From: Plantactinospora mayteni
GTDB lineage: Bacteria > Actinomycetota > Actinomycetes > Mycobacteriales > Micromonosporaceae
Direction of reading: 5' to 3'
Assembly (NCBI RefSeq): GCF_016862935.1
Contig: NZ_BONX01000002.1
Location: forward strand, 62,001 to 126,000
DNA length: 64,000 bases
A model generated the notes under the pieces. That model made no database searches, was not told the origin of the DNA, and saw nothing but the letters and a program-made list of their open reading frames with translations. Positions within the stretch are counted from its first letter, which is position 1, and each line of letters opens with the position of its first letter. This document shows positions 27,687 to 52,244 of the stretch, piece by piece. A program made the translations under genes and the position numbers.

Positions 27687-27720
27687 ACGCTAGGCGCCCG
27701 GCTGCACAGAATCCGCACAT
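27687..27720 (-). promoter_or_regulatory. SARP-like direct repeat and -10 of the 381-aa beta-helix gene
   Basis: On the minus strand TGTGCGGATTCTGTGC (plus 27704-27719) repeats TGTGC with an 11-bp period. After 11 nt comes TAGCGT as a -10. The same arrangement occurs at four other secreted-protein genes in this window. Confidence 0.6.
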
Positions 27721-27778
27721 GGAACCAGCGCGGAATCAGCCGGTGATATTGAATTGACGGCGGTCGCACCAACGGCAT

Positions 27779-27867
27779 TGAACCTTTCAACCTGAGCCGC
27801 GCGGCGCTCACGCACCGCGTCCGGCCCTACGGTCCGCCGGACCGCAGGGGGAGGTTGAAAAGGTTCA
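27779..27867. repeat. dispersed palindromic element, copy A
   Basis: 89 bp bounded by the inverted arms TGAACCTTTCAACCT and AGGTTGAAAAGGTTCA. Inside is a 25-nt hairpin (27825-27849): CCCTACGGTCCG, C, CGGACCGCAGGG, with one mismatch. It ends 8-35 bp before the candidate starts of the plus-strand beta-helix gene. Copy B at 56753-56844 has the same layout with a different but still paired inner stem. Confidence 0.8.
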
Positions 27868-27901
27868 TTGCGAAATGACGCGAAAGGACGATCCGTTGCA
27901 G

Positions 27902-29962: not shown

Positions 29963-29967
29963 TCACA

Positions 29968-30067: not shown

Positions 30068-30940
30068 TCAGGAGGCGAAGCGCTGGGCGAACCGGCTCCG
30101 CAGCGTGGTGCTGCCGGAGAGCGCGGGGCAGGACCATTCCGGCTGCACACCCCAGCTGTAGGCGACGTCGAAGACCGGCGAGGGCACCAGGCTGTCCCAC
30201 CGGGCGAAGATCTGGTCCATCTCGGTCGCCGTGGGCAGCCGCCACTTGCGGTTCCCCGTCGGGATGCTCGAACAGGTCTGACCGAACGCCTGGTAGGTCG
30301 GCACGATCGCGGCGAGCGGAATGCCGTTGGCCAGCGTCTGCTGTACCGCCTGGTTGATCAGGCCGTACTCACAGGTCTCGCCGATGCGGCACGGATACGG
30401 GTCGAGTCCGATCAGGTCCACCCCGGACCGGGCCGGCGCCAGGGCGGCGGGCGCCGCCTCGCCGTCTCCGCCGCCTGACGCGACGAACGACTTCTGGACT
30501 CCACCTGTCCGGGTACGGATGTAGTTGGCCCGCTTGCTGATCAGCGCGAGCAGGGTGGGGCACGCGACGAAGTCCGGCTCGTCCCACAGGTACCAGCCGA
30601 AGACCTTCGGGTTCCCGGCCAGGCTGTCGACCAGTGCGTTGAACTGAGCGTCGGTGTACTCGGAACCGCATTGGGAGTTGTCCCCGCCGACCCAGAGGAG
30701 GGCCTGGTGGCCGGCCGGCAGCGCGTTGACGTCCCCCGGCCACGGGCCCAGGTCCCAGAGGTTGAAGCCGACGTCCCGAGGCGCCGCCGAGTACCCGATG
30801 TTGTTGGCGTAGTGCAGTGATGTCGTGGCCAGCGGTGCGGCCTCGACGGCCACGGCCGGTGTCGCGACGGCGGCCGGTGCCGGACCGGCCGACATCGCCG
30901 TCACCACGAGCACGGCCAGCAGTGCCTTTCTCCCGCGCAT
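30068..30940 (-). CDS. secreted glycosidase-like (TIM-barrel) protein
   Basis: 290 aa with a signal peptide (MRGRKALLAVLVVTAMSAGP). The mature part has LHYANNIGYSAAP, then FGWYLWDEPDFVACP, a motif seen in uncharacterised glycoside-hydrolase-like barrels where the Glu of WDEP is a candidate catalytic acid. Later come LIGLDPYPCRIG and VPTYQAFGQ. No family number can be assigned by eye. ATG 30940 follows GAGAGGAGCG. An open extension to 32290 is out of frame with, and overlaps, the PLD-like gene, so it is ignored. Confidence 0.7.
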   Translation of the reverse strand: MRGRKALLAVLVVTAMSAGPAPAAVATPAVAVEAAPLATTSLHYANNIGYSAAPRDVGFNLWDLGPWPGDVNALPAGHQALLWVGGDNSQCGSEYTDAQFNALVDSLAGNPKVFGWYLWDEPDFVACPTLLALISKRANYIRTRTGGVQKSFVASGGGDGEAAPAALAPARSGVDLIGLDPYPCRIGETCEYGLINQAVQQTLANGIPLAAIVPTYQAFGQTCSSIPTGNRKWRLPTATEMDQIFARWDSLVPSPVFDVAYSWGVQPEWSCPALSGSTTLRSRFAQRFAS

Positions 30941-31065: not shown

Positions 31066-32211
31066 TCAGCTGATCGGGACGGCGGCGGCCCGCAGCGCCA
31101 GGAAGTTCGACCGGTACTGGTCGTGGATGGTTGCCGACTGGATCCGCAGCAGCGCCTCGTCGTTCTCCCGCAGCGCGGCGTTGGAGTAGTTGTGGCTGCC
31201 CGTCACCACCCACTTGGTGTCCCGCTGCCCGGCGTACGTCCCCTCGATCAGCAGGTACTTCGAGTGCACGATGTAGTCGCCGCTGATCCGGTACAGCTTG
31301 ATCCGGCTGTGCCCGGACAGGATGCTCGGCACGTCGGCGTCGGAGTCGGTGTAGACGACCTCCACCCAGCACTTCCGGTTGGCCAGGTCGCGCAGCTTGT
31401 TGGCGATCGGGTTGCGGCTGAAGTACCACATGCCGATCCGGATGATGGTACGGCCGGTCCCGGTGCCGACCGAGGTGTTGCCCTCGCAGCTGACGTTCTC
31501 GTCGAGCATGTTGTAGATCGTGTCGGTGTCCTGGCTGGTGCCGGCGCGCGGAAAGAAGTACGACTTCGCGTTCCCGCTCGACGTGCTCCGGTAGTAGTCG
31601 TTGTTCTTCACCTGGGCGGCCAGGTCGTCGAAGTACTCGACGTACGAGTTGTAGACGGCGGCGTTGCCGACCAGCGTCACCGCGTTGTTCCAGTACCGCT
31701 CGGCGTTGCCGCTGGTCAGGTTGGACGAGCTCTGCACGAGCACGTTCGCCGTGCCGGAGGTGTTGGAGAAGAGGAAGAACTTGTTGTGCATGATCGGCGT
31801 ACCGAGGTTGCCGATGCAGGCCCGCCCGGTGGTGCACACAGTCACCCAGGACGGGGTACTCCGGCTCGTACCCAGCTTGCCGATCAGGCTGGTCACCGCC
31901 GGGTAGTCCCGGGACTCGCTGTCGACGACGACCCGCACGTTCACCCCCCGGTCGTACGCCGCGATCAGATCGTTCGACACCCGGGTCAGGGAGAAGTGGT
32001 AGATCGCCACCCGAATCGTGGATCCGGCGGCGGCGGCCTGGACCAACCCCTGGATGTGCTCGATGACGGCGTACTGCTGGCTGGCCACGGTGGGGTTGTT
32101 GAAGACCGCGCCCGAGGTCACGGCCGCAGCCGCCGGGGCGGTCGGGGCCAGGAAGGCCGCGGTGGCGATGGTGCTCGTGACGAGCAGCCCGGCGATACGA
32201 CGCAGAAGCAT
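31066..32211 (-). CDS. secreted phospholipase D-like protein
   Basis: 381 aa. Signal peptide MLLRRIAGLLVTSTIATAAF. Two HxK motifs of the PLD superfamily: His142/Lys144 in MHNKFFLFSN and His316/Lys318 in HSKYLLIEG, each followed by the usual Ser/Asn block (SSSNLT and TGSHNYS). The Asp of HKD is Ser149 in the first copy and Glu323 in the second, so activity could be altered. Likely extracellular. ATG 32211 follows GAGGAG. Its promoter has the shared direct repeat about 76 bp upstream of the start. Confidence 0.84.
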   Translation of the reverse strand: MLLRRIAGLLVTSTIATAAFLAPTAPAAAAVTSGAVFNNPTVASQQYAVIEHIQGLVQAAAAGSTIRVAIYHFSLTRVSNDLIAAYDRGVNVRVVVDSESRDYPAVTSLIGKLGTSRSTPSWVTVCTTGRACIGNLGTPIMHNKFFLFSNTSGTANVLVQSSSNLTSGNAERYWNNAVTLVGNAAVYNSYVEYFDDLAAQVKNNDYYRSTSSGNAKSYFFPRAGTSQDTDTIYNMLDENVSCEGNTSVGTGTGRTIIRIGMWYFSRNPIANKLRDLANRKCWVEVVYTDSDADVPSILSGHSRIKLYRISGDYIVHSKYLLIEGTYAGQRDTKWVVTGSHNYSNAALRENDEALLRIQSATIHDQYRSNFLALRAAAVPIS

Positions 32212-32270
32212 TCGGTCTCCTCGATCGGGTGGAAGTCCGGGACAACCTGGCATCGGCATTGACGCTGCAC

Positions 32271-32303
32271 AGTGTGCCGGCGGTCCGCACAGTTTCCGCA
32301 CAG
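32271..32303 (-). promoter_or_regulatory. SARP-like direct repeat and -10 of the PLD-like gene
   Basis: Minus-strand TGTGCGGAAACTGTGC (plus 32287-32302), 11-bp period, followed after 10 nt by CACACT. It lies about 30 bp beyond the 3' end of the AfsR-like gene. Confidence 0.6.
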
Positions 32304-32332: not shown

Positions 32333-35300
32333 TCAGCTTTCGTCGAGCTGCTGGCGCAGTTCGGCCGCCTCGCGCCGGGCCTGCTCGGCGGCGACGGGGT
32401 CGCCGAGGGCGTCGTGCGCCTCGGCGAGGACGCGGAGGCCGGTGGCGAGCCAGTGCGGCGAGCCGATCCGGCGCCAGATCGCGACCGCCTGCCCGGCGCG
32501 GTGCAGCCCGAGCCGGGGCCGGCCGGCGGCGAGCTGGGCCACCGCGAGCGCCCACAGTGTGCCGGCCTCGCCCCACGCGTTGGCGAAGTCCCGGTGCACC
32601 CACAGGCACCTTGCCAGCAGCCGGCGCCCCTCGCCGGGTCGGCCCAGCCTGACCCGCGTCTCGCCCAGCCAGCACGCCGCATGCGCGGCGGCGAGCCGGT
32701 CACCGAGGTTCTCGCTGATCTGCTGGGCGCGCCGAAAGTAGTCGGCCGCGTCGGCGTACCGGTGATCGGCCCGGGCCACGTGACCCAGGCTGCGCAGGGC
32801 CTGTGCCTCACCCGGCCGGTAGCCAGCCTGCCGGCTCAGCCGCAGGCACTCGTCGAAGTACGCCGTCGCCTCGGCCAGCCGCCCGCGTTCCAGGTGGACC
32901 ACGCCGATGCCGTTGGTCGCGTACACCCGCCCGTTGAGGTTGTCGGTGCGCAGGGCCAGCTCCCGGGCCCGGCCGAAGGTGTCCAGTGCGGCGGAGGACT
33001 GGCCGCGTAGCCGGTAGAGGTACCCGAGACCGGCGGTGATCGCTGCCTCGTACTCCGGATCGTGATTGGTGATGGCCGCCCGGGCCGCCTCGAAGTGGCC
33101 GATCGCCTCGGGATATCGGTCCTGGATCGTCTCCAGCTCGCCCAGGCCGCGGTACAGCTTCACCGCGGTCCGCCGGTCGCCGGCCCGGAGCGCGGCGGCC
33201 AGGGCCCGGCTCTGCACCCGCCGCCAGTCGTCGAAGTGGGTGCCGAGCTGGAAGAACGTGGTGAGCGCCGCGGCCAGGCTGCCGGCCAGGCCGGTCGCCC
33301 CGACGGCCAGGCCGTCGTCCACCACCGACATCAGGAGGTCGTGCTCCCGCTCGAACCAGGACCGCGGATCGGCGGTGATCCGGTCCACCTCGGCCCGGGG
33401 CAGGCTCCACCGGGCCAGCCGGTGCCGGGCCAGGCCGAGGAAGTCCGCGGACAGCCGCGTGTCGGCGCGTTCGGCCAGGGCCAGCGCGGCCCCGACCAGC
33501 CGGCGGGTGGCCGCGGTCCGGGCGGACGGCTCGTCCCCGGCGGACGCCTGCTCCTGGGCGAATGCCCGGACCAGGTCATGGAGGCGGTACCGGGTCTGGT
33601 CCGCCGCCGCCACCGGCTCCACCAGGTGCACCGCGACAAGGTCGTCGAGTACCTGGTCGGCTTGGGACAGCGGGGCGTCCAGCAGCGCGGCGAGCGCCCA
33701 GGACGGGAAGTCGCGGGTCCGCAGCGGGCCCAGCCGCCGCAACGCCAGCCGAGCCCGCTCGGTCAGCCCGCGGTACGTCAGGTCGAGGCTGGCCCGCACC
33801 GCCAGGTCGGCCACGGCCAACTCGTCCAGCCGGTGCTGGGCCGCCGCCAGCCGGTCGGCCAGTTCGGCGACGGGCGAGCCGGGCCGGGCCGCCAGTCGCG
33901 CGCCGGCGATGCGCAGCGCGAGCGGCAGGTGGCCGCAGAGCGCGGCGAGCCGGGCGGCGCCGGCGGGATCGGCGCGCACCCGAGGCGTACCGGCGAGCTG
34001 TTCGAGCAGGGATACGGCGTGGCCAGGGGAGAGCAGGTCGAGCGGGAGGCGGACCGCCTCGGCCAGGCCGGTCAGTACGCGCCGGCTGGTGACCACCGCG
34101 GCGCAGCCAGCCCCGCCCGGCAGCAGCGGGCGGACCTGGGCCAGCGAGGCGGCGTCGTCCAGGAGCACCAGCACCCGGTGCTGCGCCACCACGGAACGAA
34201 ACAGCGCGGCGGCCTCGGCCTCGTCGTCGGGCACGGCCGACGGCCGGACCCCGAACGTCCGGAGGAACCGGCCGAGCACCTCGACCGGGCGCAGCGGTTC
34301 CAGGCCCGGGGTGGCGCCGCGCAGGTCCACGTAGACCTGCCCATCCGGGAACCAGCTCGCGCATTCGCGCGCCACCTTCAGGGCGAGAGCGGACTTGCCG
34401 ACCCCGGCGACGCCGTCGACGGCGATCACCACCGGGCCGTCACCTACTCCGGCACCGCGCAGCGTCCGGGCCAGCCAGGCCAGTTCGTCGGCGCGCCCGC
34501 ACAACTCGGTTGAGCCGGCCGGTAGCTGCCGTGGTGGCGCGGCGGGCACCGCCTGGCCCGAACTCGTGCCGCTGGCCAGGCTGTCGTCGCCCCGCAGGAT
34601 GCGTTCGTGCAACCGGCGCAGCTCCGGTCCAGGGTCCGCGCCGAGTTCGCTGGCGAGCAGCGCACAGAGTTCGGCGTACGCGGCCAGCGCCTCGCCCGGC
34701 CGACCGGCCCGGCACAGCGCGACCATCAGGTGCACACACAGCCGTTCCCGCAGCGGGTGCTCCTTCACCAGCGCCCGCAGTTCGCTGACCACGCTTTCCG
34801 GCTGCCCCAGGGCGAGCCGGGCCTGCGCCCACTGCTCGGCCACGGCCAGCCGCCGCTCCTCCAGCCGTAGCACGGTCGCTTGCAGGGCCGGTCCGTACGC
34901 CACCCCGTCCAGCGCCCGGCCACGCCACAGCCGCAGCGCCCGTTCCAGGCAGTCTGCGGCGGCCGGCAGCCGGCCCGCCCGCAGCGCCCGCTCGCCCTCG
35001 TCGGCCAGCCTGTCGAACCGCTCCAGGTCCAGCTCGCCCGGGTAGACGTTGATCTGGTATCCACCGGCCCGCACGGTGCACAGCCGCGAGCCGCCTTCGC
35101 CCGGCACCTGGAGCACCCGGCGCAGACCGGCCAGGTACAACCGGAGGTTGGCACCGGCGGCAGCCGGGGGCTGCCACCACACCGAGTCCATCAGGCGTTC
35201 GGTCGACAACGCTTCGTTCGTGGACAGCAGCAGCGCGCCCAGCACGGTGCGTTGCTTGGGCGTGCCGATGTCCAGAGACTCGCCTTCGTAGTAGACGTCC

Positions 35301-35377
35301 GGTCGGCCCAGTACGCGGAACTCCACCTCGACCTCGTTCCTCCCCAGGGGTTCCATGGTCTGGTGCCGCGCTGGCAT
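32333..35377 (-). CDS. AfsR-like SARP regulator (OmpR-HTH, BTAD, NB-ARC, TPR)
   Basis: 1014 aa. Order of domains: OmpR/PhoB-type winged helix (VEFRVLGRPDVYYEGESLDI, TPKQRTVLGALLL); bacterial transcriptional activation domain (residues about 100-260, LDLERFDRLADEGERALRAG); NB-ARC ATPase with P-loop VDGVAGVGKSALALK and Walker B HRVLVLLDDAASL; C-terminal TPR array (GRVYATNGIGVVHLERGRLA). This is the AfsR layout, an activator switched by nucleotide and phosphorylation in the known case. The start could be ATG 35377 or 35356. Divergent from a second giant SARP with about 100 bp shared; it lies within the island of genes carrying SARP-like boxes. Confidence 0.9.
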   Translation of the reverse strand: MPARHQTMEPLGRNEVEVEFRVLGRPDVYYEGESLDIGTPKQRTVLGALLLSTNEALSTERLMDSVWWQPPAAAGANLRLYLAGLRRVLQVPGEGGSRLCTVRAGGYQINVYPGELDLERFDRLADEGERALRAGRLPAAADCLERALRLWRGRALDGVAYGPALQATVLRLEERRLAVAEQWAQARLALGQPESVVSELRALVKEHPLRERLCVHLMVALCRAGRPGEALAAYAELCALLASELGADPGPELRRLHERILRGDDSLASGTSSGQAVPAAPPRQLPAGSTELCGRADELAWLARTLRGAGVGDGPVVIAVDGVAGVGKSALALKVARECASWFPDGQVYVDLRGATPGLEPLRPVEVLGRFLRTFGVRPSAVPDDEAEAAALFRSVVAQHRVLVLLDDAASLAQVRPLLPGGAGCAAVVTSRRVLTGLAEAVRLPLDLLSPGHAVSLLEQLAGTPRVRADPAGAARLAALCGHLPLALRIAGARLAARPGSPVAELADRLAAAQHRLDELAVADLAVRASLDLTYRGLTERARLALRRLGPLRTRDFPSWALAALLDAPLSQADQVLDDLVAVHLVEPVAAADQTRYRLHDLVRAFAQEQASAGDEPSARTAATRRLVGAALALAERADTRLSADFLGLARHRLARWSLPRAEVDRITADPRSWFEREHDLLMSVVDDGLAVGATGLAGSLAAALTTFFQLGTHFDDWRRVQSRALAAALRAGDRRTAVKLYRGLGELETIQDRYPEAIGHFEAARAAITNHDPEYEAAITAGLGYLYRLRGQSSAALDTFGRARELALRTDNLNGRVYATNGIGVVHLERGRLAEATAYFDECLRLSRQAGYRPGEAQALRSLGHVARADHRYADAADYFRRAQQISENLGDRLAAAHAACWLGETRVRLGRPGEGRRLLARCLWVHRDFANAWGEAGTLWALAVAQLAAGRPRLGLHRAGQAVAIWRRIGSPHWLATGLRVLAEAHDALGDPVAAEQARREAAELRQQLDES

Positions 35378-38651: not shown

Positions 38652-38684
38652 TGTGCGGATTATGTGCATGCCACTGCGAAAATT
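38652..38684 (+). promoter_or_regulatory. SARP-like direct repeat and -10 of the peptidoglycan-binding protein gene
   Basis: TGTGCGGATTATGTGC at 38652-38667 (11-bp period), then 11 nt and AAAATT as a candidate -10. It is on the plus strand, matching the orientation of the gene it precedes. Confidence 0.6.
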
Positions 38685-38747: not shown

Positions 38748-39371
38748 ATGGGACTCAGGATATTGCGGTTCCGGCGGATGCTGCTGTCCGCGGCGCTCGC
38801 ATGCGTCGGTGTCGGCGTCGTACCAGCCACTGCCAGCGCCGACCCGATCCGGCCGCTGAACATCGACCGCGACTACCTGGACGTCGCCGCCGGCACCCCT
38901 GAACCGCCGTCCGGGTGCGCCCCGGTCAACCTCGACTTCCCGGCCTACCCGGAGCTCACCGGCGGGGCCACCGGCGACGCCGTCCGGGCGGTCCAGTGCC
39001 TGCTCGACAACGCCGGTTTCTCACCCGGCGAGGGCTACCCGACCGGCACGTACGACGAGTCGACCAGCGCGGCGGTCCGGGCGTTCCAGCAGATCGTCGG
39101 CTTGGGGCCGAGCAGCGACGTCGACTCGCACACCTGGACCGCGTTGCTCGCCTTCGGTGACACGCCGACCCTGCGCAACGGGTCCGCCGGCGCCGCGGTA
39201 CGGCGGCTACAGCGTGCCCTGACCGCCGCCCTGTCCCGCACGGTGGGCATCGACGGCCAGTTCGGAGCGATTACCGAACAGGCCGTCCGCGACTACCAGA
39301 CCACCCGCGGCCTGGGCGCCGACGGCGTTGTCGGCCCGCAGACCTGGGCCGCCCTCCAGACTGGCAGGTAG
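38748..39371 (+). CDS. secreted protein with two peptidoglycan-binding domains
   Basis: 207 aa. ATG 38748 follows GGGGAGGACAGCG. Signal peptide MLLSAALACVGVGVVPATAS. Two PG_binding_1 domains: first around GATGDAVRAVQCLLDNAGF to STSAAVRAFQQIVGL; second around GSAGAAVRRLQRALTAAL to GADGVVGPQTWAALQTGR. No catalytic domain is present, so it probably binds the wall or modulates a partner enzyme. It lies downstream of the SARP fusion gene, with a SARP-like box 81 bp upstream. Confidence 0.87.
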   Translation: MGLRILRFRRMLLSAALACVGVGVVPATASADPIRPLNIDRDYLDVAAGTPEPPSGCAPVNLDFPAYPELTGGATGDAVRAVQCLLDNAGFSPGEGYPTGTYDESTSAAVRAFQQIVGLGPSSDVDSHTWTALLAFGDTPTLRNGSAGAAVRRLQRALTAALSRTVGIDGQFGAITEQAVRDYQTTRGLGADGVVGPQTWAALQTGR

Positions 39372-41943: not shown

Positions 41944-44900
41944 TTAATGCATGTCGAAGAGTCGCTTCGCCTTGTCCCCCCATATCGCCTCGCTGCCGTT
42001 GGAGACGGCGTCCTTGACGAACAGCGCGGCGTCGGTGCCGACGAGTTTCCCCTCCGCCTCCCCGGCCGCCCTCTCGCGGTTGGCGACGCGGGCGTTGGCC
42101 CTGGTGAGCTGGTCGACCCGGCCGGGCGCGTCCCTCGGCATCGCACGGGCCGCCGTCTGGGCGCGGCGGGCGGAGTTGATCGCGAGTTGCGCCCCCCTGC
42201 CGAGGCCGAACGTCACCAGACCGGCCGCCTCCCAGCCGGCGGTTCTGATGTTCCCGTCCCCGAGGGCCACGCCCATGTCGACTGCGGTCATCGCGGCCGC
42301 GCCCAAGCCGCAGATGGCGGAGCAGAGGGGGATGAACGCCCCGAGGGCCAAACCCGTTTTGAGAATCTTCCAGCCCGCCCCACCCGGCTTCATCGCTGCC
42401 CCTGCCTTGGCAAGGCCCCTGCTGGCCGCCCCGGCCGCCTTTCTAGCCCCGTTGACGATATTCCTCTTCATTCGGTTGATGTGCGGGCTGGCCTTCTTCC
42501 ATGCCTTCTTGACCTCGTCCTTGATCCAGGTCTTTATCCGCCGGACCTCTGTGACCCATTCCGTGATCTTTTTGGTGATGGTGCGCCAGAGCTGCTTGAC
42601 CTGCTCCACCCACTTCGTGACCTGCCTCCAGGCCGACTTGATGAGGTTGCCGATGAACGGGATCTTTATGACCCATCTCACGGGTTCCCAGCTCGTGAAG
42701 GCCACCCAGGTTCTTTCCCAGTAGGGCTGCTTCTCCGTTACGGACTTGACCTTCATCTTCTTGACGTGCTGGGTGCTGATGGCCCACCGATCACCGTTCG
42801 GGTCGGCGTAGGTGACGGGGTTGTTGTTGGAGTAGGTGTAGCCGTTGGCCTGTTGCGGTTCGTTGTGGTCGGTCACCGGGTCGACCGAGATGAACCGGCC
42901 GAGCGCCGGATCGTACTCGCGGGCGCCGAGATGGACCAGACCGGTGCCGGGGTCGGCGGTGCCGCCGACGAATGCCTTCTCGCCGGGCCACGCCACCGCC
43001 GCGCCGCGGACCTCGCCGTACGGGGTGTGCCTGCGGCGCTTCACGTTCTGGCTGCTCGCATCGATGGCGATCTCCGGCGTCCCGTGATGGTCGAGCGCCA
43101 GCCAGTTCAGCGCGTTGTCGGCCGAGGTGCGTACCGCGATGGTACGGCCGCCGAATCCGTAGTACCGGGTGCCGGTCACGGTGCTGTTGGGCGCCAGACG
43201 CAGCTCGGTCTCGCCGAGGTAGAGGGTCGTGCCGTTGGCATCGCGCCGGATCAGCCGGGTACCCCCGGCGTCGTAGAGGAAGCTCGTGGTGGCTCCCGCC
43301 TTGGTGATGCTGCTGACGCGACCTTCCGCATCCCAGGTGAGAATCTGCTCGTCGGTCCCCTTCCGCCGGCTTGCCGTGTTTCCGGCGGCGTCGTAACCGA
43401 ACTCCTCGACCTGCGCCGCGCCGTCGGGTCCGGTCGTGGTCACCCGGCTCACGGCGTGCGGCCGGGCCTGGCCCGCGGCCGGATAGCTGTACACGCTCGT
43501 GGTCCGAGCGCCACCCGGGGTGGTACGGGTCTCCGAGAGCCGGTTGCCGATCTTGTCGAACGTCCACGAGTGCCAGTACGGTGCCGGGCCGCCGAGCCCG
43601 CCCGCCGCTGGCGCTGCTTGGCAGTCACCCGAGGCCGGTGTCCACGCCTCGGAAAGCCGTCGAAGGTGGTCGTACCGGAAGCACTGGGTCTCCTCGGCTT
43701 TCTCGGCACGATCGGCGATCGACGTGATGTTGCCGGCCGGGTCGTAGCCGTAGACGAAATCGGCCACGCGTTGTGGCGCGGCGTCGCGGGAGACCACGGC
43801 CCGGGCCAGCCGATGGGTGCCGTACTCGTACTCGTATCCGAGCCGGGTGGCCGCTCCCCCGGCCGAGAGCGTCAACTGGCGCAGCTCACCGAACTGGGTG
43901 TACTCGGTGGCGGTGACGTAACTGCTCGCCCCGCTGAGCGTGACCGCCTGCCCGAGGCTGTCGTACCCGGTGGTGATCTGCTCGGCGGGGAGCCCACCGG
44001 CGGCGGGCAACCCCACCGTGGCCGACGATCCGTCCACCTTGTACGTCTGGCTGGACTCGTATCTACCGGCCAGCGCCCCTTCGCTTGCCGGGATGGTGAC
44101 CCGCGTCCCGGTCGGCCGGCCGGCGGCGTCGAACCCGGTGACCTCGGAGATGTAGGCGCTGGTGCCGACGTACCGGGCGGCGGCGATCTGACTGCCGCGA
44201 GCCGGTGTGCCGTCGGGAAGCGTGTCGTAGGTCCGGCTGGTTAGTTTGGTGCCGCTCAGCGATCCCTCGAAAGTCGCCGTTTGCCGGCCGAGGATGTCGT
44301 AGGCATGGGCGATGGTGCTGCCGCGCGCGTCCCGGGTCGTGACGATCTCCCCGGCATCGTTGTAGGTGACATCGGTGGCGCCACGGTCCGGCTCCTCAGC
44401 GCGAATCCGGAGACCCCGCAGATCGTATTCGTACCGCCAGACGTTGCCGGCAGGGTCGGTGACCGTGGCAATTTCCCCGCGGTTGGTGTACGTGTACTTC
44501 GTCGCGTCGTACGTGCCGGTCGGCGAAGCGCCGTGGTACTCGCGGAGCTCGATCAGGTTGCCTTCCGCGTCCGTGATCCTTGTCGTCGGTGTCTCGCCGT
44601 CGGGCGGATCGACATCGTGCCGGTTGACGCCGTAGGTGTGCGTGGTGCGCCACTTCTCGAGTCCGTCGACCATCAACATGATGTTCGTCGGGCGTTCGTT
44701 CTCGTCGAACACGGTGCGCACTTGCGCCGGCATCATGTTCTCGTCCGCGAGGACCACGTCGGTGCCCGGTGGCGCATCGTTGTAGTACGGCCCGTTCTCC
44801 TTCACGACGAGGCCACGCGAGTCGTAGACCTTGTCGCTGAGGATGCGGCCGCCGCCGGGTGCGGGCTCCTGGGTCTGCCGTGGCCGCATCAGGCCGTCGT

Positions 44901-47900
44901 AGAGCTCGTACTCGGTTTCGTAGTCCCCGTTGGGTTGCAGCGTCCTTGAGGTCACCGCGTTGGCCCCGGTGGTACGCACCAGGTAGCTGTATTCCGCGCT
45001 GGGCGTCTGGGTGGTCGCCCGGCCCGGCAGCCACACCTTCGCGAGCCTGCCCAGCGGGTCGTAGCGCACCTCGGTCCGCCGGTCGTTCGCGTCAAGGACG
45101 ACGGTGTCCTCGCCCCAGGCCGGCTCGTACATGGTTCGGAGGCGATGGCCGAGCGCGTTGGTGACATCGATCTGGGTGACGGGGCCATCGGTGGCCGGCG
45201 TGTAGGCCGTCGTCGTCCGGGCGCCCCTCGCGTCGTACTCCTCGATCTCGCGGCCGTGTACGTCGTAGCCCACCCGCCTCGTTGTCACGTAGGTCGGTGC
45301 CCCGTTCACCCAGCCCGACAGTCCCTCGGTCCGGGTGACCTCACCGCGCACCGGCGGCGCACCGAGCGTGCCGCTGCCGTCGTAGTAGTGCCGGACGTCG
45401 GAGATGAGGTCGTCCGGGTAGACGGGGGTACGGTCACAGTTCGCCGCGACCGTCTCGATGCGGTACGGCAGGTTGATGATCCATACCGACTCGTTCCTCG
45501 TGTACCAGTAGCGGGTGCAGGTGTCGTCGTCCGGGTTCGACACATCGTTGAGATCGTTGGACCGCTGCACCGTGCCGTCGGCGTCGTAGACGTTCTCGGC
45601 GCCCATGTTCTGCCAGCCGCCCGAGCCCGTGGCCTGGCTCTGCCGGACCTTCCCCTCCTCGACCCGGAACGCCTGGGTCGTGCCCCAGCTACGGGTCCGG
45701 GTGGCGGTGGCCGCCGACAGCCACGGGTCGGTGATCTCCTTCTCGTGCACCGCGCCGCCGGCGGTGTACCTGATGTTCTCCCGCGGGACGTTGGCGAACT
45801 GGTCGGAGTCGCGCAGCCGGGTACCGGCCGAGTCGGTGATCCAGACCTCCTTCTTCCCGCCGGCCGAGGTCCGGTCACCGTCCATGCCGCGGAAGTACAG
45901 CGACTCGGTCACGGACTGCGGGCCGTTTACCGGACCCTTGTGGACGCGAACCCGGTCGTACCCGCGCCACTGCGACCAGCTCTTCTTGTTGTCCGGCACC
46001 ATCCCGTCGGCCTCGTCGAACCGCCAGGCCGGCTTGTTCGGGTACTCGATCCGCGTGATCACCGGCGGCAGGCCGGTGGTGCGATCGACCTCGGTCACCT
46101 CCGTGACCACGTACTTGTTGAACCAGTCAAGGCGTTCGGCGGTCAGCCCCTCCGGCGTCCATCGGGTCGGGAAGCAGCGCGCGGTGTTCGAGTCGGGCAC
46201 TGGCACGTTTCCGGGTACGGCGCACTCCTTCGGCGAGTAGCCGATCGTGATCTTGCCGCCCGAGTCGAGATTGATCCCGCTGACGCGCATCCAGTTCATC
46301 GGCGGGATGCCGTCGACGCCGTCCACCCGGTTGGCCAACTGGGTCGCCTCGAAGCTGATCGGTGGCAGGCTCGCCTCGCCGCCGACGAGACCCTTGTGCT
46401 GGACCGAGGCCAGCCACATTCCGGCCCGGGTGCCGTCGCCGGGGCTGGGGTACGAGTGGATCAGCGTCCACGAGTCGACGTTGCGGTACGCGAGGCCGCC
46501 CCAGACCTGCGTCGTCACGGCGGCCAGGCGCTTCTGGGTCCAGAAGGTGGGGTTGAATTTGTTGTTGCAACTCGTGCTGCTCGTGCACGCCTGGTCCCAC
46601 GGTACGTCCGGCCAGTTCGCCGGCGACGAAGCGGCGCAGGTGGTGCCGGGGATGCACCGGTCCGCCTCGGTGAACAGCACGCGGCCGACCGCCGGCTTCG
46701 CGTAGACCTCACCGTCGCGCTGCCCGTAGTCGATTCGCTTGAGCCAGCCGCCCCGGATGTAGCTCGACACCTTGCTGGCGGTGATGTTGCGGGCGTAGTT
46801 GTTCTTCTCGGTCCCGTAGAACAGGCTCATGGTGTTGCCGTTGCGATCCACGACGTAGTCGAGGTTCCACTTCCACGCCCGGTCGCAGTACGACGCGTCG
46901 AACGTCGACTTGTAGCACGGCTCACCGGAATGGTTGCCGAAGACCGGAACCGTCCAGACCGAGTTGGTGACCTCGTCACCCGACTCCCAACGGGTCAGCT
47001 TGTGCTTGCCGAAGTAGTACTGGGTGCCGTCCGGGGTGGTGATCCGCCAGTACTCCCCGTTGTCGTCGCCGTTGTCGCCGCCGGTCAGAAGCTCCACTTT
47101 CGTCCCGTCGTCGACGCGTGACTTCCACTGCCCGGTGGCGTCGTCACGGATCAGCTCACCGCCGCGCCCGCCGAGCACCATCACCGCGTTGTCGAAGCTT
47201 CCCCGGCGTCCGCTGTCGGTCGACCAGCACAGGTCGCCGGTCTTCCGGCCGCTGTTGTTGCCGCCGCTGGTGTCCTCGCCGCACGACTTGTACCGCCGCT
47301 CGATGTAGCCTCCCGGCTCGAACGCGAACCCCTCGCCGACCCACGACGGCTGGTTGTTCGTCGACGAGGTCCGGCCGTCCATGCCGCCGCTGGAGTAACC
47401 GAGCTCCAGGGCCGGCTGCGGCCCGCTGAGGCCCGGCACGGACTCCATCGGGTAGCGCCAGTTGAAGTCGCCGGAAGAGGTGCCGACCGACCACGTGGAG
47501 GAGGGCGACAGCGCGGTGGCCTTGAAGTCGCCCGCACCGGAGGACGCGGCGGCGATGACCGCGTACAAGCCGGACCCGCTCGTGGCCCGTACCTCGACAT
47601 CCCCGCTCAGCCGGCCCGAACCGTCATTGCGGGTGGCGATCGGGGTACCGGCACACTCCGGAAGATCCGGCGTGGCGAGCGCACACTCGGGTACGGCCAC
47701 CAACCGCAGCCGGGTCGCCCAGTCCGCACCGTAGGCGTCGCGGAAGGAGGAGTAGTCGACCTCCAGGCCGACCTGGCCGGCGGTGGCCACCCCGTCGGCG
47801 CGGTTCACCCGTAACAGCAAGCCGTCCGCGCGCCGCGGCAGCATCTCGACCCGTACCCGGCCGGGTGTTGCCGAACGGGCGGCGATACCCTTGGGCGCGC

Positions 47901-48228
47901 CGACCGACACGGGCAGCTTGCCCGCCTGGACATACGCGTTGCCGGCGGCGCTCGCGTCGGCCGCGGTGCCGGCCGTGTCCAGACTGATCTCCGCGTTACC
48001 CGGCGTGGGCCAGGAGACGGCAGGAGTGCCGCGCAGCGCCAACTTCTCGACAAGGCCCGGCTTGGCTTCCGGCACCGACACCGGCCGGACGGCCGCCGAG
48101 CGCTCCCTGGCGAGCGAGAGATCGTCCACCGGCGCGGCCTCCGCCCGCTCCGGGATACCGCAGACTACCGACGCTGCCATAACCGTCGCCAACGCCAGCC
48201 CCAACTGGCGACGCACCACGTGGTCCAC
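41944..48228 (-). CDS. giant secreted RHS/YD-repeat protein, polymorphic-toxin-like
   Basis: 2094 aa. Signal peptide (GLALATVMAASVVCGIPERA), a SpvB-like N-terminal region (WRYPMESVPGLSGPQPALEL, SYSSGGMDG), many YD repeats (YDPLGRLAKVWLPGR, YDAAGNTASRRKGTD, TYTNRGEIATVTDPAGNVWR) and the RHS core end REYDPALGRFISVDPVTD to YTYSNNNPVTYADPNG. The last ~270 residues are a different, Lys/Trp-rich tail (KQLWRTITKKITEWVTEVRR) and a hydrophobic segment (LALGAFIPLCSAICGLGAAA). The DNA of that tail drops to 57% GC in lines 42481-42600, against about 68-72% elsewhere. No obvious immunity gene follows. It has a SARP-like box about 89 bp upstream. Confidence 0.9.
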   Translation of the reverse strand: MDHVVRRQLGLALATVMAASVVCGIPERAEAAPVDDLSLARERSAAVRPVSVPEAKPGLVEKLALRGTPAVSWPTPGNAEISLDTAGTAADASAAGNAYVQAGKLPVSVGAPKGIAARSATPGRVRVEMLPRRADGLLLRVNRADGVATAGQVGLEVDYSSFRDAYGADWATRLRLVAVPECALATPDLPECAGTPIATRNDGSGRLSGDVEVRATSGSGLYAVIAAASSGAGDFKATALSPSSTWSVGTSSGDFNWRYPMESVPGLSGPQPALELGYSSGGMDGRTSSTNNQPSWVGEGFAFEPGGYIERRYKSCGEDTSGGNNSGRKTGDLCWSTDSGRRGSFDNAVMVLGGRGGELIRDDATGQWKSRVDDGTKVELLTGGDNGDDNGEYWRITTPDGTQYYFGKHKLTRWESGDEVTNSVWTVPVFGNHSGEPCYKSTFDASYCDRAWKWNLDYVVDRNGNTMSLFYGTEKNNYARNITASKVSSYIRGGWLKRIDYGQRDGEVYAKPAVGRVLFTEADRCIPGTTCAASSPANWPDVPWDQACTSSTSCNNKFNPTFWTQKRLAAVTTQVWGGLAYRNVDSWTLIHSYPSPGDGTRAGMWLASVQHKGLVGGEASLPPISFEATQLANRVDGVDGIPPMNWMRVSGINLDSGGKITIGYSPKECAVPGNVPVPDSNTARCFPTRWTPEGLTAERLDWFNKYVVTEVTEVDRTTGLPPVITRIEYPNKPAWRFDEADGMVPDNKKSWSQWRGYDRVRVHKGPVNGPQSVTESLYFRGMDGDRTSAGGKKEVWITDSAGTRLRDSDQFANVPRENIRYTAGGAVHEKEITDPWLSAATATRTRSWGTTQAFRVEEGKVRQSQATGSGGWQNMGAENVYDADGTVQRSNDLNDVSNPDDDTCTRYWYTRNESVWIINLPYRIETVAANCDRTPVYPDDLISDVRHYYDGSGTLGAPPVRGEVTRTEGLSGWVNGAPTYVTTRRVGYDVHGREIEEYDARGARTTTAYTPATDGPVTQIDVTNALGHRLRTMYEPAWGEDTVVLDANDRRTEVRYDPLGRLAKVWLPGRATTQTPSAEYSYLVRTTGANAVTSRTLQPNGDYETEYELYDGLMRPRQTQEPAPGGGRILSDKVYDSRGLVVKENGPYYNDAPPGTDVVLADENMMPAQVRTVFDENERPTNIMLMVDGLEKWRTTHTYGVNRHDVDPPDGETPTTRITDAEGNLIELREYHGASPTGTYDATKYTYTNRGEIATVTDPAGNVWRYEYDLRGLRIRAEEPDRGATDVTYNDAGEIVTTRDARGSTIAHAYDILGRQTATFEGSLSGTKLTSRTYDTLPDGTPARGSQIAAARYVGTSAYISEVTGFDAAGRPTGTRVTIPASEGALAGRYESSQTYKVDGSSATVGLPAAGGLPAEQITTGYDSLGQAVTLSGASSYVTATEYTQFGELRQLTLSAGGAATRLGYEYEYGTHRLARAVVSRDAAPQRVADFVYGYDPAGNITSIADRAEKAEETQCFRYDHLRRLSEAWTPASGDCQAAPAAGGLGGPAPYWHSWTFDKIGNRLSETRTTPGGARTTSVYSYPAAGQARPHAVSRVTTTGPDGAAQVEEFGYDAAGNTASRRKGTDEQILTWDAEGRVSSITKAGATTSFLYDAGGTRLIRRDANGTTLYLGETELRLAPNSTVTGTRYYGFGGRTIAVRTSADNALNWLALDHHGTPEIAIDASSQNVKRRRHTPYGEVRGAAVAWPGEKAFVGGTADPGTGLVHLGAREYDPALGRFISVDPVTDHNEPQQANGYTYSNNNPVTYADPNGDRWAISTQHVKKMKVKSVTEKQPYWERTWVAFTSWEPVRWVIKIPFIGNLIKSAWRQVTKWVEQVKQLWRTITKKITEWVTEVRRIKTWIKDEVKKAWKKASPHINRMKRNIVNGARKAAGAASRGLAKAGAAMKPGGAGWKILKTGLALGAFIPLCSAICGLGAAAMTAVDMGVALGDGNIRTAGWEAAGLVTFGLGRGAQLAINSARRAQTAARAMPRDAPGRVDQLTRANARVANRERAAGEAEGKLVGTDAALFVKDAVSNGSEAIWGDKAKRLFDMH

Positions 48229-48299: not shown

Positions 48300-48332
48300 A
48301 GCATGACAGGCGGTATGCACAGAATTCGCACA
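48300..48332 (-). promoter_or_regulatory. SARP-like direct repeat and -10 of the RHS gene
   Basis: Minus-strand TGTGCGAATTCTGTGC (plus 48317-48332), 11-bp period, then 11 nt and CATGCT. One base differs from the other copies in the first half-site. Confidence 0.6.
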
Positions 48333-48445: not shown

Positions 48446-51400
48446 TCACGGCTCCAGGCGGAGCGCGAACCGTTGATCGGACGGCGGTACGGCGGCACAC
48501 GGAGCCTGCACGATCCGGGCTCCGTTGGCGATACTCGCGCCGCTGACCCGCAGGCACTTTTCGCTGTGTACGACCCGCAACTGCACCACGGGCTCGTATC
48601 CGCCGCCCGCCACCAGGTCCAGCCGGAACTGCTGATTGGACTTCGCCGCACCAGCCTCGTAACACGCGTACTGGAGCGTGTGTGCGTTGTCCAGCAGGCT
48701 GTACCCCGCGATGTCGAGGCACTTGTCGGCGGCGGTCCTGATCAGGTAATACGGTGAGCCGCCGACGCGTTCAAAGCGGAACGTCTCCCAGGTCGCCGTG
48801 GTGACGCAGTCCCACTGGTCCAGGATCGCGTCGTTCGCTGTGCTCCCGCCCGGTACGTCGAAGCACTTGTTGCTGTGCACGGGATGGATGCGGTACCTCC
48901 GGTTCGGGTCGACGTGCACGGTCGGCCTGGCCTCGCTGACGTACCCCTCCCAGTCCGCGCGCTTGTCGGCGAACCCGCTGCCGGTCGAGATGAAGGTGTA
49001 GAGGCGGCGCTTCCCGCCGCCGGTGTCGTACAGCGACGCGATGTCGGTCCGGCCGTCGGCGTCGAAGTCCCCGGCGGCGAGGGTGCCGCGGGTGGCGTCG
49101 AAGCCGCCCACGCCGCTGCTCCACCGGGTGGTCGGCGTCCAGACGGTACCGTCGCCCTTCCAGGTCACCAGCCGGGCCGTGGCGTTGCCGTCGTCGTAGA
49201 GCGCGACCACCTCGGCGCGGCGCAGGGCGTCCCCGTCGACGTCCCCGGCGACGAACCGGGCGCGCCGGGCGTCGAAGGCGCCGACCCCGCTGTCCCAGCG
49301 CGTCACCGGGCCGCCGAATACCCCGGCGGTGGCGTGGTGGATTCGCATGTGCGTCTGGGCGTTCCCCATGTCGTGCATGTCCACGACGTCGTCGTCGCCG
49401 TCTCCGTCGACGTCCGCGGCGACCAGGTTGGCACCGGCGACCCCGGCACCGGTGGCGCCGCTGTCCCAGCTCAGCGCGGGGGCGGCGAACCCGTTCCCGG
49501 TGGAGAGGTACGCCCAGAGCTTGAGCTGGCCGCCGGCGAGGCCCTGGAGCGCGGCGATGTCGTCGTCGCCGTCCGCATCGAAGTCCCCGGCGACCACCTT
49601 CAGGTGGCTGAGCCGGAAGATGTCGCCGGTCCACACCGGCTCGCTCACGGCCGAGAACCGGTTCCCGTCGGCGGGCAGCAGAAAGAGCCGGACCATCCGG
49701 TCGGCGTCCTCGCGGAAGATGGCGACGTCGGTGCGGCCGTTCCCGTCGAAGTCGCCGGTCACGCTCCGCACCAGCTCGGCCGGGAACCCGCCGGAAATGC
49801 CGGTGTCCCAGGCGACGTACCCGGGATGGAAGCCGCCCGGGGCGGAGAGCAGGTTCCACACCGCGGTCTGGCCGTGCCCGTGGTCCACCAGCGCGGTCAC
49901 GTCGCCCCGCCGGTCGCCGTTGACGTCCGCGGAGACCGCGGGATCGCTGACCGTACGGCCCCGGGCGACCAGTTCGCGGCCGGAGCTGAGCCCGCTGTTG
50001 TTGCCGGCCCGGTCGACCGCCCGCGCCCAGAGGGTCCGGCGGACGTCACCGGTGTCGGTCGCGAACTGCGGCCACAGCGTCACCGGTACGGTGGCCCGAC
50101 CGTCCGCCCCGGCGGCCACCCACATGGTGGTGACGTCCTGGCTGAACCCGTACCGGTAGCCGGCGACGTCGGTCTCCGCGCCACTTGGGGCGAAGGTGAC
50201 CGTGCCGACCTCGCCGACCGCCTTCACCGGGGTAGGGCCGGGATAGTCCGTGGAGGTCAACGTCGGCGGCAACGGCCGACTGGCGTCCACAGTGAACCAG
50301 CAGCGCTCGCCGTATCCGCCGGGCGGCCCCGAGTCGCGGGTACGGGCGCGGTAGCTGAACACGGCGCCGGGCTGATCGGTCGGCAGGGTCCCGGCGGGGA
50401 CCGGCGGCCAGCGCACCACACTGCCAGAGCCGACCGTGCCCGAGGACAGGCTGGTCAGAACCGTCTCTCCGGAGAGGATCTCCAGCTCGTTGGTGACGTT
50501 GTCGCTGTTCGGGTCGTAGCCCACCGCCGTGAAGGTCGGGGTGGCGGTGTTCAATGCGGTCGGCGCGGCGGCGGTGCCACACGGCGTCGGCGGCACGGTG
50601 GAGACGCTCGTCGGACTCTCCGGCGGCGTGTTGTACTCGATGTTGAGCCGCGCGGTGGCCGGGTTGAACCGTTTCCAGTAAAGTTCCTTGCCCTCGTGGT
50701 CATCCGGGATCTTCAGCCCGAACCCGATCGCCTCCTGCGGACCGTTCACCCCCCGCACCGCTTCCTGCACGACCGGGGTGACCGTGTCGGGGGTCAGGCC
50801 GAACTCCATCAGCATCGGCGGCTGGCCGCATCTCGACTTGTTGGCCTTGCCGTCGCGGGTCGCCAGGGCCGCCCCACCGAGCCAGTTTCCCGCACTGTTG
50901 TTCCAGGTGACACCTACCGCCGGGTCGATCGGTCTGGTGTGCCACAACTCGACGCTCGATTCCGCGCAGTTCGCGGTGTGCGTCATGGAGATCGAAAACC
51001 AGGCGCGGGACACCGTTGCCCGGGCCACCCGGGCGATGTTCATCTGGAAGAACGTCCGCCACGGGCCGTCGCCGCTGTCGTACACCGTACCGACCCGGAC
51101 GTCCTCGCGGTAGAAGTCGTCGGTCCAGTAGGACTTTCCGGCCGCGTCCTTGTTGACCAGGGTCCACCGGTACTGGGCCGCACTGTACGACGGGTCGATG
51201 TAGACCGGGTACCGGGTGTCCGGGGCGGTGAGCATCTTCTGGTCCGGGACCACCACCAGTTCACCGGGGTTGACCTCCAGGTCCATCACCCGTTGCCGGC
51301 CCGGCGCCGGCCGCGCCTCTTCACCCCGGCCGCTCTCGGCGTCCGGCGCGATCCGGAGGGTGGCGCCGGTCGCCTCGGGTGGCTCCGGAGTGCTGTCCCA

Positions 51401-52138
51401 CATCACCGGCGGGCCGGAGGCGAAGACCGCGCGGCCGGTGGCGTCCACGGCCGTGCTGCCGCCGTCCGCCCCGGCGCGCAGGGTCAGCTTCCGGGTGCTG
51501 GTGCCGAACCGAATGCGGCGCAGCGCCGGATTCGCCGCCGCTGCCGCGTTCTTGACGACGAGGAACTGGGAGAAGCCCACCCCGTTGACCCGGACTTGCA
51601 GGTCCACTCCGGGCAGCACCTCGGGATAGGTCGCCGTGTCACCGTCGAGCACCGGCGCCGGCAACGGCGCCGGCCAGGTCAATCCCAGCTCGGCGCCGTC
51701 CTGCTCGGCGGTGACCAGCGGACCGGAACCGCCACCGGAGAGTCGCAACCCGATGGGAGTCGCTCCCGGCGACACCCCGCCGGCCGCGTCGCGGACCAGC
51801 CGGGTGTCGATCGGAACCCACCGGCCGTCGCGCTGGGCCCGTACCGGCAGCACATACTGCTCGAGGGTGCGGGTCCCCGACGGATTCGCGAACACCCGCG
51901 CGGTCTCGGTGCGCTCGCCGACGATCTCGACGGGTACGCCGGTCCGCCGCGCGGTCTCGGCCGCCCGGGCAGCCTCGACCCCGCCCACCGGGTCGGGTGC
52001 CGCCGACGCGGTCGGCGGTCGGGACAGGGCAGCGTGGGCCGACGCCGGCCCGGCTGAGCCGGCCGGCGCGCCGGACCCCACCACGAGCGCCGTCAAGAGA
52101 GCCACCGACCAACCGGCAGCACCGAAACGAAGCGTCAT
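48446..52138 (-). CDS. secreted DNRLRE/VCBS-repeat protein with ricin-type lectin domain
   Basis: 1230 aa. Signal peptide (AAGWSVALLTALVVGSGAPA). N-terminal DNRLRE-like beta domain (SYWTDDFYREDVRVGTVYDS, AWFSISMTHTANCAESSVEL), an Ig/fibronectin-like stretch, then FG-GAP/VCBS repeats (VTGDFDGNGRTDVAIFR, VAGDFDADGDDDIAALQ, VAADVDGDGDDDVVDM, AAGDFDADGRTDIASLY) with calcium-type Asp loops. It ends in a ricin B beta-trefoil (NKCFDVPGGSTANDAILDQW, DKCLDIAGYS). It probably binds extracellular glycans, and it precedes the RHS gene on the same strand by 217 bp, so the two may act together. A SARP-like box lies 91 bp upstream. Confidence 0.87.
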   Translation of the reverse strand: MTLRFGAAGWSVALLTALVVGSGAPAGSAGPASAHAALSRPPTASAAPDPVGGVEAARAAETARRTGVPVEIVGERTETARVFANPSGTRTLEQYVLPVRAQRDGRWVPIDTRLVRDAAGGVSPGATPIGLRLSGGGSGPLVTAEQDGAELGLTWPAPLPAPVLDGDTATYPEVLPGVDLQVRVNGVGFSQFLVVKNAAAAANPALRRIRFGTSTRKLTLRAGADGGSTAVDATGRAVFASGPPVMWDSTPEPPEATGATLRIAPDAESGRGEEARPAPGRQRVMDLEVNPGELVVVPDQKMLTAPDTRYPVYIDPSYSAAQYRWTLVNKDAAGKSYWTDDFYREDVRVGTVYDSGDGPWRTFFQMNIARVARATVSRAWFSISMTHTANCAESSVELWHTRPIDPAVGVTWNNSAGNWLGGAALATRDGKANKSRCGQPPMLMEFGLTPDTVTPVVQEAVRGVNGPQEAIGFGLKIPDDHEGKELYWKRFNPATARLNIEYNTPPESPTSVSTVPPTPCGTAAAPTALNTATPTFTAVGYDPNSDNVTNELEILSGETVLTSLSSGTVGSGSVVRWPPVPAGTLPTDQPGAVFSYRARTRDSGPPGGYGERCWFTVDASRPLPPTLTSTDYPGPTPVKAVGEVGTVTFAPSGAETDVAGYRYGFSQDVTTMWVAAGADGRATVPVTLWPQFATDTGDVRRTLWARAVDRAGNNSGLSSGRELVARGRTVSDPAVSADVNGDRRGDVTALVDHGHGQTAVWNLLSAPGGFHPGYVAWDTGISGGFPAELVRSVTGDFDGNGRTDVAIFREDADRMVRLFLLPADGNRFSAVSEPVWTGDIFRLSHLKVVAGDFDADGDDDIAALQGLAGGQLKLWAYLSTGNGFAAPALSWDSGATGAGVAGANLVAADVDGDGDDDVVDMHDMGNAQTHMRIHHATAGVFGGPVTRWDSGVGAFDARRARFVAGDVDGDALRRAEVVALYDDGNATARLVTWKGDGTVWTPTTRWSSGVGGFDATRGTLAAGDFDADGRTDIASLYDTGGGKRRLYTFISTGSGFADKRADWEGYVSEARPTVHVDPNRRYRIHPVHSNKCFDVPGGSTANDAILDQWDCVTTATWETFRFERVGGSPYYLIRTAADKCLDIAGYSLLDNAHTLQYACYEAGAAKSNQQFRLDLVAGGGYEPVVQLRVVHSEKCLRVSGASIANGARIVQAPCAAVPPSDQRFALRLEP

Positions 52139-52211
52139 CGCGGCCCCTCCGCTCCTTCACGCACACTCCACCGCTCGGGCCCGAACGAGTACGAGTCTGG
52201 AGTGCAAGCAA

Positions 52212-52244
52212 AGGATGCCCACAGGGCAGCACATTTTCCGCACA
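52212..52244 (-). promoter_or_regulatory. SARP-like direct repeat and -10 of the VCBS/lectin gene
   Basis: Minus-strand TGTGCGGAAAATGTGC (plus 52229-52244), 11-bp period, then 11 nt and CATCCT. Confidence 0.6.

Follow-up and report, generated by a model that had tools for sequence, protein, structure and literature searches.

A direct repeat before genes for exported-type proteins

The DNA analysed here, referred to as the window, is a stretch of 64,000 nucleotides from Plantactinospora mayteni (C2:62001-126000), whose genome of 9.84 Mb is divided into 123 contigs. It contains an island in which genes for proteins with signal-peptide-like starts are found together with two genes for SARP-type regulators, designated S1 and S2. 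A short direct repeat is located before five of the former genes. The repeats (sites 1 to 5) and the genes that they face are as follows.

27704..27719, minus strand: site 1, TGTGCGGATTCTGTGC; -10-like TAGCGT at 27687-27692
26442..27587, minus strand: 381-aa protein with a signal-peptide-like start, faces site 1; no Pfam or NCBIfam match
32287..32302, minus strand: site 2, TGTGCGGAAACTGTGC; -10-like CACACT at 32271-32276 (10 nt); the second repeat extends to TGTGCGGA
31066..32211, minus strand: PLD-like protein (PLDc_2) with a signal-peptide-like start, faced by site 2
38652..38667, plus strand: site 3, TGTGCGGATTATGTGC; -10-like AAAATT at 38679-38684, or GAAAAT one base earlier
38748..39371, plus strand: peptidoglycan-binding protein (PG_binding_1, two stretches) with a signal-peptide-like start; site 3
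48317..48332, minus strand: site 4, TGTGCGAATTCTGTGC, one mismatch; -10-like CATGCT at 48300-48305
41944..48228, minus strand: RHS/YD-repeat protein of 2094 aa with a signal-peptide-like start and a C-terminus variable past the Rhs core; site 4
52229..52244, minus strand: site 5, TGTGCGGAAAATGTGC; -10-like CATCCT at 52212-52217
48446..52138, minus strand: FG-GAP/ricin-lectin protein of 1230 aa with a signal-peptide-like start; site 5

The first-pass annotation of this DNA had assigned the sequence TGTGCGGAWWMTGTGC to all five positions. The coordinates and strands were correct for all of them, and the sequence was exact at four, but the site at 48317 carries the one mismatch listed above. As had been claimed, each site points at its signal-peptide-like gene, and the distance to the start codon is 75-116 bases (116, 75, 80, 88 and 90 bases to the starts at 27587, 32211, 38748, 48228 and 52138, respectively). 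A YANNNT-like hexamer had also been described 11 nt, and once 10 nt, past the repeat. This spacing was observed (TAGCGT, AAAATT, CATGCT and CATCCT at 11 nt; CACACT at 10 nt for the site at 32287), but the hexamer of the 38652 site, AAAATT, does not begin with Y. Exact matches to TGTGCGGAWWMTGTGC numbered four in the window, as compared with a mean of 0.00 in 100 shuffles. With three mismatches permitted, no enrichment was detected in the window (19 matches, 27.6 expected). Only the tight motif is therefore conspicuous, and the looser motif was dropped from use.

Some gene assignments needed revision. The gene facing the first site has no Pfam match, and the beta-helix/NosD gene, to which the site had been attributed, is the divergent one at 27875-29962, which is not faced. 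The PLD gene was recovered at 31066-32211, but the longer open reading frame (ORF) at 30068-32290 is not this gene and has a different frame at its beginning. A lyase-like gene had been included in the regulon; the polysaccharide lyase family 8 (PL8) gene has no site of its own. It is one of two genes that follow site-bearing genes:

39481..41826, plus strand: polysaccharide lyase family 8, 3' of the peptidoglycan-binding gene, without its own site
30068..30940, minus strand: gene 3' of the PLD-like gene; signal-peptide-like start by eye; no Pfam match for 30068-30886

The lyase gene is possibly on the same transcript as the peptidoglycan-binding gene, and the 30068..30940 gene is possibly co-transcribed with the PLD-like gene.

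Genome-wide distribution of the sites

A scan of the whole genome with TGTGCGGANNNTGTGC, as had been proposed in the first-pass annotation, yielded 8 matches, while the backward-read pattern yielded 0 and about 0.3 were expected from the base composition. All eight are upstream of, and face, genes with signal-peptide-like starts. Four are in the window, and the others are at C53:147780, C55:4818, C80:18718 and C80:22936. The relaxed pattern TGTGC-N6-TGTGC-N11/12-A-NNN-T found 9 matches in the 9.84 Mb (control, 0; about 0.7 expected from base composition), namely the eight TGTGCGGANNNTGTGC sites and 48317, so that five are in the window and four on other contigs. GGA was present in eight of these nine sites and GAA in one, neither being part of the query. 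The first repeat is TGTGCGGA in eight and TGTGCGAA in one, and the second is fixed only for TGTGC. When one mismatch was allowed, 15 of 23 places genome-wide were one-mismatch sites, against 6 places in the backward control; 48317 and four overlapping places on C4 look promoter-like, and the remainder were taken as chance.

The geometry of the sites is that of a SARP operator. SARPs bind direct repeats spaced 11 bp (or 22 bp) apart, with the 3' repeat 8 bp from the -10 element, and in the AfsR box, which consists of two 11-bp repeats, the first 8 bp of each are contacted and the last 3 are not, according to the sections of PMC10936776 used here. Direct repeats with an 11-bp period and eight conserved bp were found at all nine P. 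mayteni sites. NANNNT follows 10-11 nt past the second TGTGC, that is, 8-9 bp past the heptamer, at nine of nine sites when the query included the -10, and the -10 was also present at all eight sites retrieved without it in the query. The SARP layout claimed for the sites, TGTGCGGA+NNN with a -10 10-11 nt after the second TGTGC, thus equals the published AfsR-box layout.

The nine targets all look exported: two RHS proteins, two FG-GAP/ricin proteins, a PLD-like, a peptidoglycan-binding and a LamG protein, and two without a family. Enrichment of signal peptides, which the earlier annotation had proposed to test, was assessed with a crude, home-made rule that passed 8 of 9 targets and 78 of 323 background genes, several target starts having been picked by eye and the background starts by script. 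The ninth target, with the start MTFWAGTTGWSMTLVAALVIGSA, failed only for the leading basic residue and was accepted by eye. Outside the window, where the starts were chosen by us, the site faces a 194-aa protein without a family on C53 (65 bases from site to start), a LamG gene followed by an RHS gene on C55 (72 bases), and an FG-GAP/ricin gene and an RHS gene on C80 (87 and 149 bases). C80 carries a second module, in the order large SARP (S3), site, lectin, site and RHS. The 381-aa protein of the window has an 80% identical counterpart in Micromonospora sp. HM5-17, and its structure prediction was uninformative, with a predicted local distance difference test (pLDDT) value of 31.

The regulators

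The two regulators of the island are encoded as follows.

32333..35377, minus strand: S1, large SARP (Trans_reg_C, BTAD, NB-ARC, TPR), proposed reader of the sites
35480..38617, plus strand: S2, with a head of XRE helix-turn-helix (HTH), Trans_reg_C and BTAD and an NB-ARC/TPR part; probably not the reader

Both had been put forward as readers. S1 has stood as a good candidate, but the DNA-binding head of S2 belongs to a distant clade. S1 shows the SARP domains (Trans_reg_C, residues 39-108; BTAD, 116-261), and AfsR chains match it at E values of 3e-41 to 4e-40. The NB-ARC and TPR_12 matches make it a large SARP. The prediction of its domain structure (pLDDT 63, with residues 1-101, the DNA-binding part, under 50) was likewise uninformative. 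In a tree of 59 SARP heads, S1 grouped with its three orthologues (support 100/100), and another P. mayteni SARP, S4, was placed next to this group together with one more SARP (94/86). S3 and its orthologues were separate (100/99), and S2 was far off with the SARP of locus L065 (100/99).

The location of S2 within the island, its transcription towards site 3 and its SARP domains would suit a reader of the sites. However, its head is 52-61% identical to that of the L065 SARP and 29-43% to those of S1, S3 and S4, no TGTGC operator was found at the L065 locus, and the S2 matches in related genomes fall on S1- or S3-type SARPs. A role of S2 as the reader is thus highly improbable. The NB-ARC/TPR part of S2 shares 49-65% identity with S3 and S4, so that the protein resembles a domain-swapped hybrid with an L065-like head and an S3/S4-like sensor.

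P. mayteni has 55 BTAD matches. A strict scan of its other SARP loci revealed assorted 11-bp repeats and no TGTGC repeats outside S1/S3. A weight-matrix scan of 49 SARP neighbourhoods, which leaves out four weaker BTAD genes, gave a maximum of 18.1 outside S1, S3 and S4, as compared with 29.8-34.5 for the training sites, and the control gave 1 match at 17.4. S4 is accompanied by a three-repeat TGTGCGG-like operator between it and a divergent lipoprotein-like gene. A resembling three-repeat site, TGGGCGGAATGTGTGCGGATTCTGGGC, was noticed 20 kb from S4, at C4:293717-293743 (L029:8718-8744), before a 463-aa gene without a Pfam family.

S1, S3 and S4 have two differences from AfsR in common: Gly takes the place of R92, and the HTH loop is shorter by one residue. 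In AfsR, R92 contacts T-38 and is absent from the list of highly conserved residues in the sections consulted (PMC10936776). The Gly is only a hint, because this residue is missing from that list, because Gly occurs in 8 of 49 P. mayteni SARPs, i.e., five besides S1, S3 and S4, and because the position is Asn in S1 of Micromonospora sp. NBRC 107566 and Ala in S3 of HM5-17.

S1 orthologues and the motif in the family

S1 orthologues, defined by a match to the DNA-binding and BTAD region at E ≤ 1e-70 with the 8 best first-look candidates scored per genome, were detected in four of the 300 genomes compared from the family Micromonosporaceae: P. mayteni, Micromonospora sp. HM5-17, Micromonospora sp. 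NBRC 107566 and Phytohabitans maris ZYX-F-186. When GTDB contigs were scanned separately with two short peptide patterns, only HM5-17, NBRC 107566 and P. maris were retrieved. Owing to the candidate limit and the short patterns, distant orthologues could be missed. The exact pattern of the first-pass annotation, which had suggested a scan of related genomes, was present in all four S1-bearing genomes and in 2 of 296 others, and the association persisted without P. mayteni (3/3 versus 2/296; Fisher P = 2e-6). In the two exceptions, G087 and G170, which have the pattern and no S1 orthologue, no -10 was present at 10 or 11 nt. The 13 fixed bases occur at 37 sites in genomes without S1, and among the 30 examined a -10 was present at one, versus 8/8 in P. 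mayteni (Fisher P = 2e-7). The relaxed pattern occurred 9 times in P. mayteni, 9 times in HM5-17 and 0-3 times in each other genome, and high counts therefore mark two genomes, not all four S1 bearers. A chance origin of the motif is disfavoured by the shuffles, the backward controls and this comparison of 300 genomes.

Only the two SARPs and the RHS gene of the window were matched in the fetched neighbourhoods of all three relatives. This bears on another class of reader, an OmpR/PhoB-type response regulator (PhoP-like, with 11-bp direct repeats). According to the consulted part of PMC10972967, the afsS promoter contains repeats common to PhoP and AfsR, and 11-bp repeats alone are therefore no proof of a SARP. 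Apart from the SARPs and RHS, however, no gene of the window was matched in all three neighbourhoods (regulators elsewhere in the genome were not searched for), and we consider such a regulator very unlikely.

In NBRC 107566, the S1 orthologue is accompanied by two sites, before an RHS gene (33% identical to the window RHS) and before another exported-type protein. No S3 orthologue was found in this genome, where S3 is matched best (45%) by the S1 orthologue, and S3 orthologues were detected in two of the three S1-bearing relatives (78% and 61%). These results have to be weighed when S3, or S3 with S4-like paralogues, is considered as the real reader, S1 then having another target. S3 adjoins two perfect sites on C80, its HM5-17 orthologue precedes a perfect site, and S4, sister of the S1 clade, lies beside its three-repeat operator; S3 could be the reader on C80. 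The two sites near the S1 orthologue of NBRC 107566, where no S3 orthologue was found, and the incomplete distribution of S3 nevertheless make the replacement of S1 as a whole unlikely. S1 is the probable reader, and its paralogue S3 probably reads the same sequence. The proposed regulon extends to contigs C53, C55 and C80 and may involve S3 as a further SARP.

Conservation of the sites in relatives

Gene calls in the fetched loci were made by a simple GC-position script, and the starts are therefore approximate. The site and the -10 at 10-11 nt were kept while the flanks had diverged in four lectin promoters, those of the window, of C80, of HM5-17 and of P. maris; the last of these carries AGTGCGGAAGATGTGC. 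The site and -10 were likewise kept, with different flanks, in the peptidoglycan-binding promoters of the window and P. maris. The RHS site of C80 was kept in HM5-17 with one change (TGTACGG). These footprints also concern the proposal that the sites are remnants of duplication, copied as promoters with paralogous genes, and form no living regulon. The lectin and RHS genes of C80 are indeed paralogues of those in the window. However, the PLD-like, peptidoglycan-binding, 381-aa, LamG and C53 genes belong to other families or none and have the same site with different flanks, and the site and -10 outlast the flanks in other species. This explanation is scarcely plausible.

In HM5-17, we place four of the nine relaxed matches before exported-type genes:

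C34:480490: PG_binding
C49:31240: CBM96
C49:243692: lectin
C49:249486: RHS

We take the match at C12:519550 as chance, and the ninth match, C8:12119, was left out of the placement. At C8:26135 and C8:35656 (L226:7152 and L168:8657), a promoter with TGTGC direct repeats is apparently duplicated, as judged by eye, and short proteins, ESX-like on visual inspection, are encoded downstream of one copy.

Several observations speak against the assignment of the sites to S1 and exported-type genes. In HM5-17, only four of the nine relaxed matches could be placed in this way, the match at C49:266866 faces no gene, and no site was found before the 381-aa orthologue. An exact motif of this genome, C49:287834, outside the nine relaxed matches, is upstream of the S1 orthologue, points away from it, faces no gene and has no -10. 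Similarly, C22:9849 of P. maris is upstream of the S3 orthologue, points away and faces no gene. These two sites may be autoregulatory or due to chance. In P. maris, nothing corresponds to the RHS site of the window, and the RHS and lectin genes are about 83 bp apart. The S1 orthologue of this species is an open frame of 313 aa that appears to lack NB-ARC and TPR, and because of this shortness, S1 at full length is matched best in P. maris by another SARP (42%). The relaxed pattern was found 2 times in P. maris and 3 times in its backward control, and at least one match occurred in 109 of 300 genomes, with up to 3 in backward controls; alone, it therefore proves little there. C53 and C55 have no BTAD match, so that a regulator must act on them in trans. 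The perfect sites beside S3 on C80 count here as well.

With these points included, the central claim of the first-pass annotation, a SARP-operated class of promoters before genes for exported proteins, is supported by the counts, the geometry, the co-occurrence with S1, the footprints at some of the genes and the control genomes without S1. Judging from sequence, we think it likely that the sites are operators of a large SARP, with S1 as the main reader, through which nine exported-protein promoters are switched on.

RHS proteins and TGTGC operators elsewhere

The RHS proteins of P. mayteni and HM5-17 have a common shell and differ in the last 300 residues. Past residue 1800, the window RHS drops from about 50% identity with the copies of C80 and HM5-17 to 24% and 14-15%, whereas the P. 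maris orthologue retains 66-72% there. The window RHS thus has the conserved core and variable C-terminal tip of polymorphic toxins, which it also resembles in the signal-peptide-like start, the long YD shell and the Rhs core. The stop of the window RHS (41944) and the convergent lyase (41826) are 117 bp apart, and no immunity gene, such as adjoins the tip of polymorphic toxins, was found between them. The minus-strand ORF at 39271-41889 runs antisense to the lyase and gave no Pfam match. The RHS genes of C80 and C52 are followed by small proteins with alike stretches by eye (L025:9280-9945 and L278:14903-15505), which are candidate immunity or partner genes.

An operator common to all RHS genes was considered and rejected. 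TGTGC direct repeats were absent from the stretches fetched for the C52, C33 and C45 copies, which make up three of six RHS matches in P. mayteni. The RHS matches listed, from 180 of 300 genomes, numbered more than 150; in the 30 best of these loci, several of which have uncertain starts, an 11-bp repeated 5-mer with a -10 was found at three, TGTGC each time. The RHS promoter of G027, of another genus, has three TGTGC repeats 11 bp apart and CATGCT (L277:16856-16888), and that of G023, also of another genus, has four 11-bp repeats, AGTGC, TATGC, TGTGC and TGTGC, followed by CATCCT (L230:7464-7502). No S1 orthologue was detected in G027 and G023 at 1e-70. G225 (L228:8668-8694) and G249, of another genus, share a three-repeat TGTGCG operator with CATACT, which is probably another SARP-type promoter.

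Comparison with known systems and a proposed mechanism

The closest known counterpart, as far as the cited excerpts go, is AfsR with the afs box of the afsS promoter in Streptomyces coelicolor. AfsR is, like S1, a large SARP with NB-ARC and TPR, and the afs box, like the P. mayteni sites, is located between -35 and -10; a weak -10 (CACTGT at afsS; CACACT, CATCCT and CATGCT in P. mayteni) lies at a distance of about 8 bp from the 3' repeat (PMC10936776). The repeat itself is different, being CGTT(T/C)ATCG for AfsR (PMC10972967) and TGTGCGGA or TGTGCGAA in the nine P. mayteni sites. The repeat of AfsR proper was found at none of the nine, no search was aimed at a neighbouring afsS gene, and by these features we would not class S1 as AfsR proper. 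The small, pathway-specific SARPs DnrI, ActII-ORF4 and PimR also have heptameric direct repeats of 11-bp period that overlap the -35, like the P. mayteni sites, in the part of PMC10972967 used here. That part describes SARPs as studied mainly as activators of antibiotic production, with targets in secondary-metabolite clusters and, for AfsR, also phosphate and nitrogen genes, in contrast to the nine exported-type genes on four contigs here.

EmbR of Mycobacterium tuberculosis (2fez; match to S1 at E 4e-38) has the SARP-type DNA-binding and BTAD fold of S1, with an FHA domain instead of NB-ARC/TPR. As the targets of EmbR illustrate, the SARP-type fold is also found in regulators outside antibiotic clusters. 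EmbR is named in the consulted part of PMC10936776. In the abyssomicin cluster of Verrucosispora maris, two SARP genes, abyI and abyR, are near a YD-repeat gene, abyK, as in the island; unlike the window RHS, abyK encodes 579 aa and is part of a polyketide cluster, and no SARP site before it is described in the excerpt of PMC3625739. In the open-access literature, partly among the matches listed, no description of SARP control of RHS or secreted proteins was found, and the operator sequence and target set are absent from the literature searched, among the matches listed. The novelty is the control of RHS and not the protein itself, the SARP layout being already known.

From these comparisons we propose a mechanism. 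The operator would be two 11-bp direct repeats, TGTGCGGA+NNN, the second fixed only for TGTGC. By analogy with the description of AfsR, NB-ARC/TPR would hold S1 off until ATP and a signal were available. S1 would then bind the two repeats as a side-by-side pair, overlapping the poor -35 region and replacing the -35 element, and would recruit RNA polymerase to the weak -10, 10-11 nt past the second TGTGC. Nine promoters on four contigs would fire together, with the island and the other contigs connected in trans, S1 rather than S3 would presumably act at any given site, and the activated products would be exported.

A small list of putative targets across the genome has emerged here from the sequence, and what it indicates is RHS, lectin and wall-binding proteins, not metabolites. 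The system offers a test of SARP specificity residues by comparison of S1, S3 and S4 with AfsR, and a route to the trigger of RHS deployment in Actinomycetes. As a tentative idea, somewhat on the doubtful side, Micromonosporaceae may possess large SARPs that form a clade distinguished by a recognition helix and an operator (TGTGCGGA repeats) peculiar to it; this clade would have moved from antibiotic control to a switch of a secretome for contact or competition. If this is true, RHS proteins would be deployed with wall- and glycan-binding partners under one master switch.

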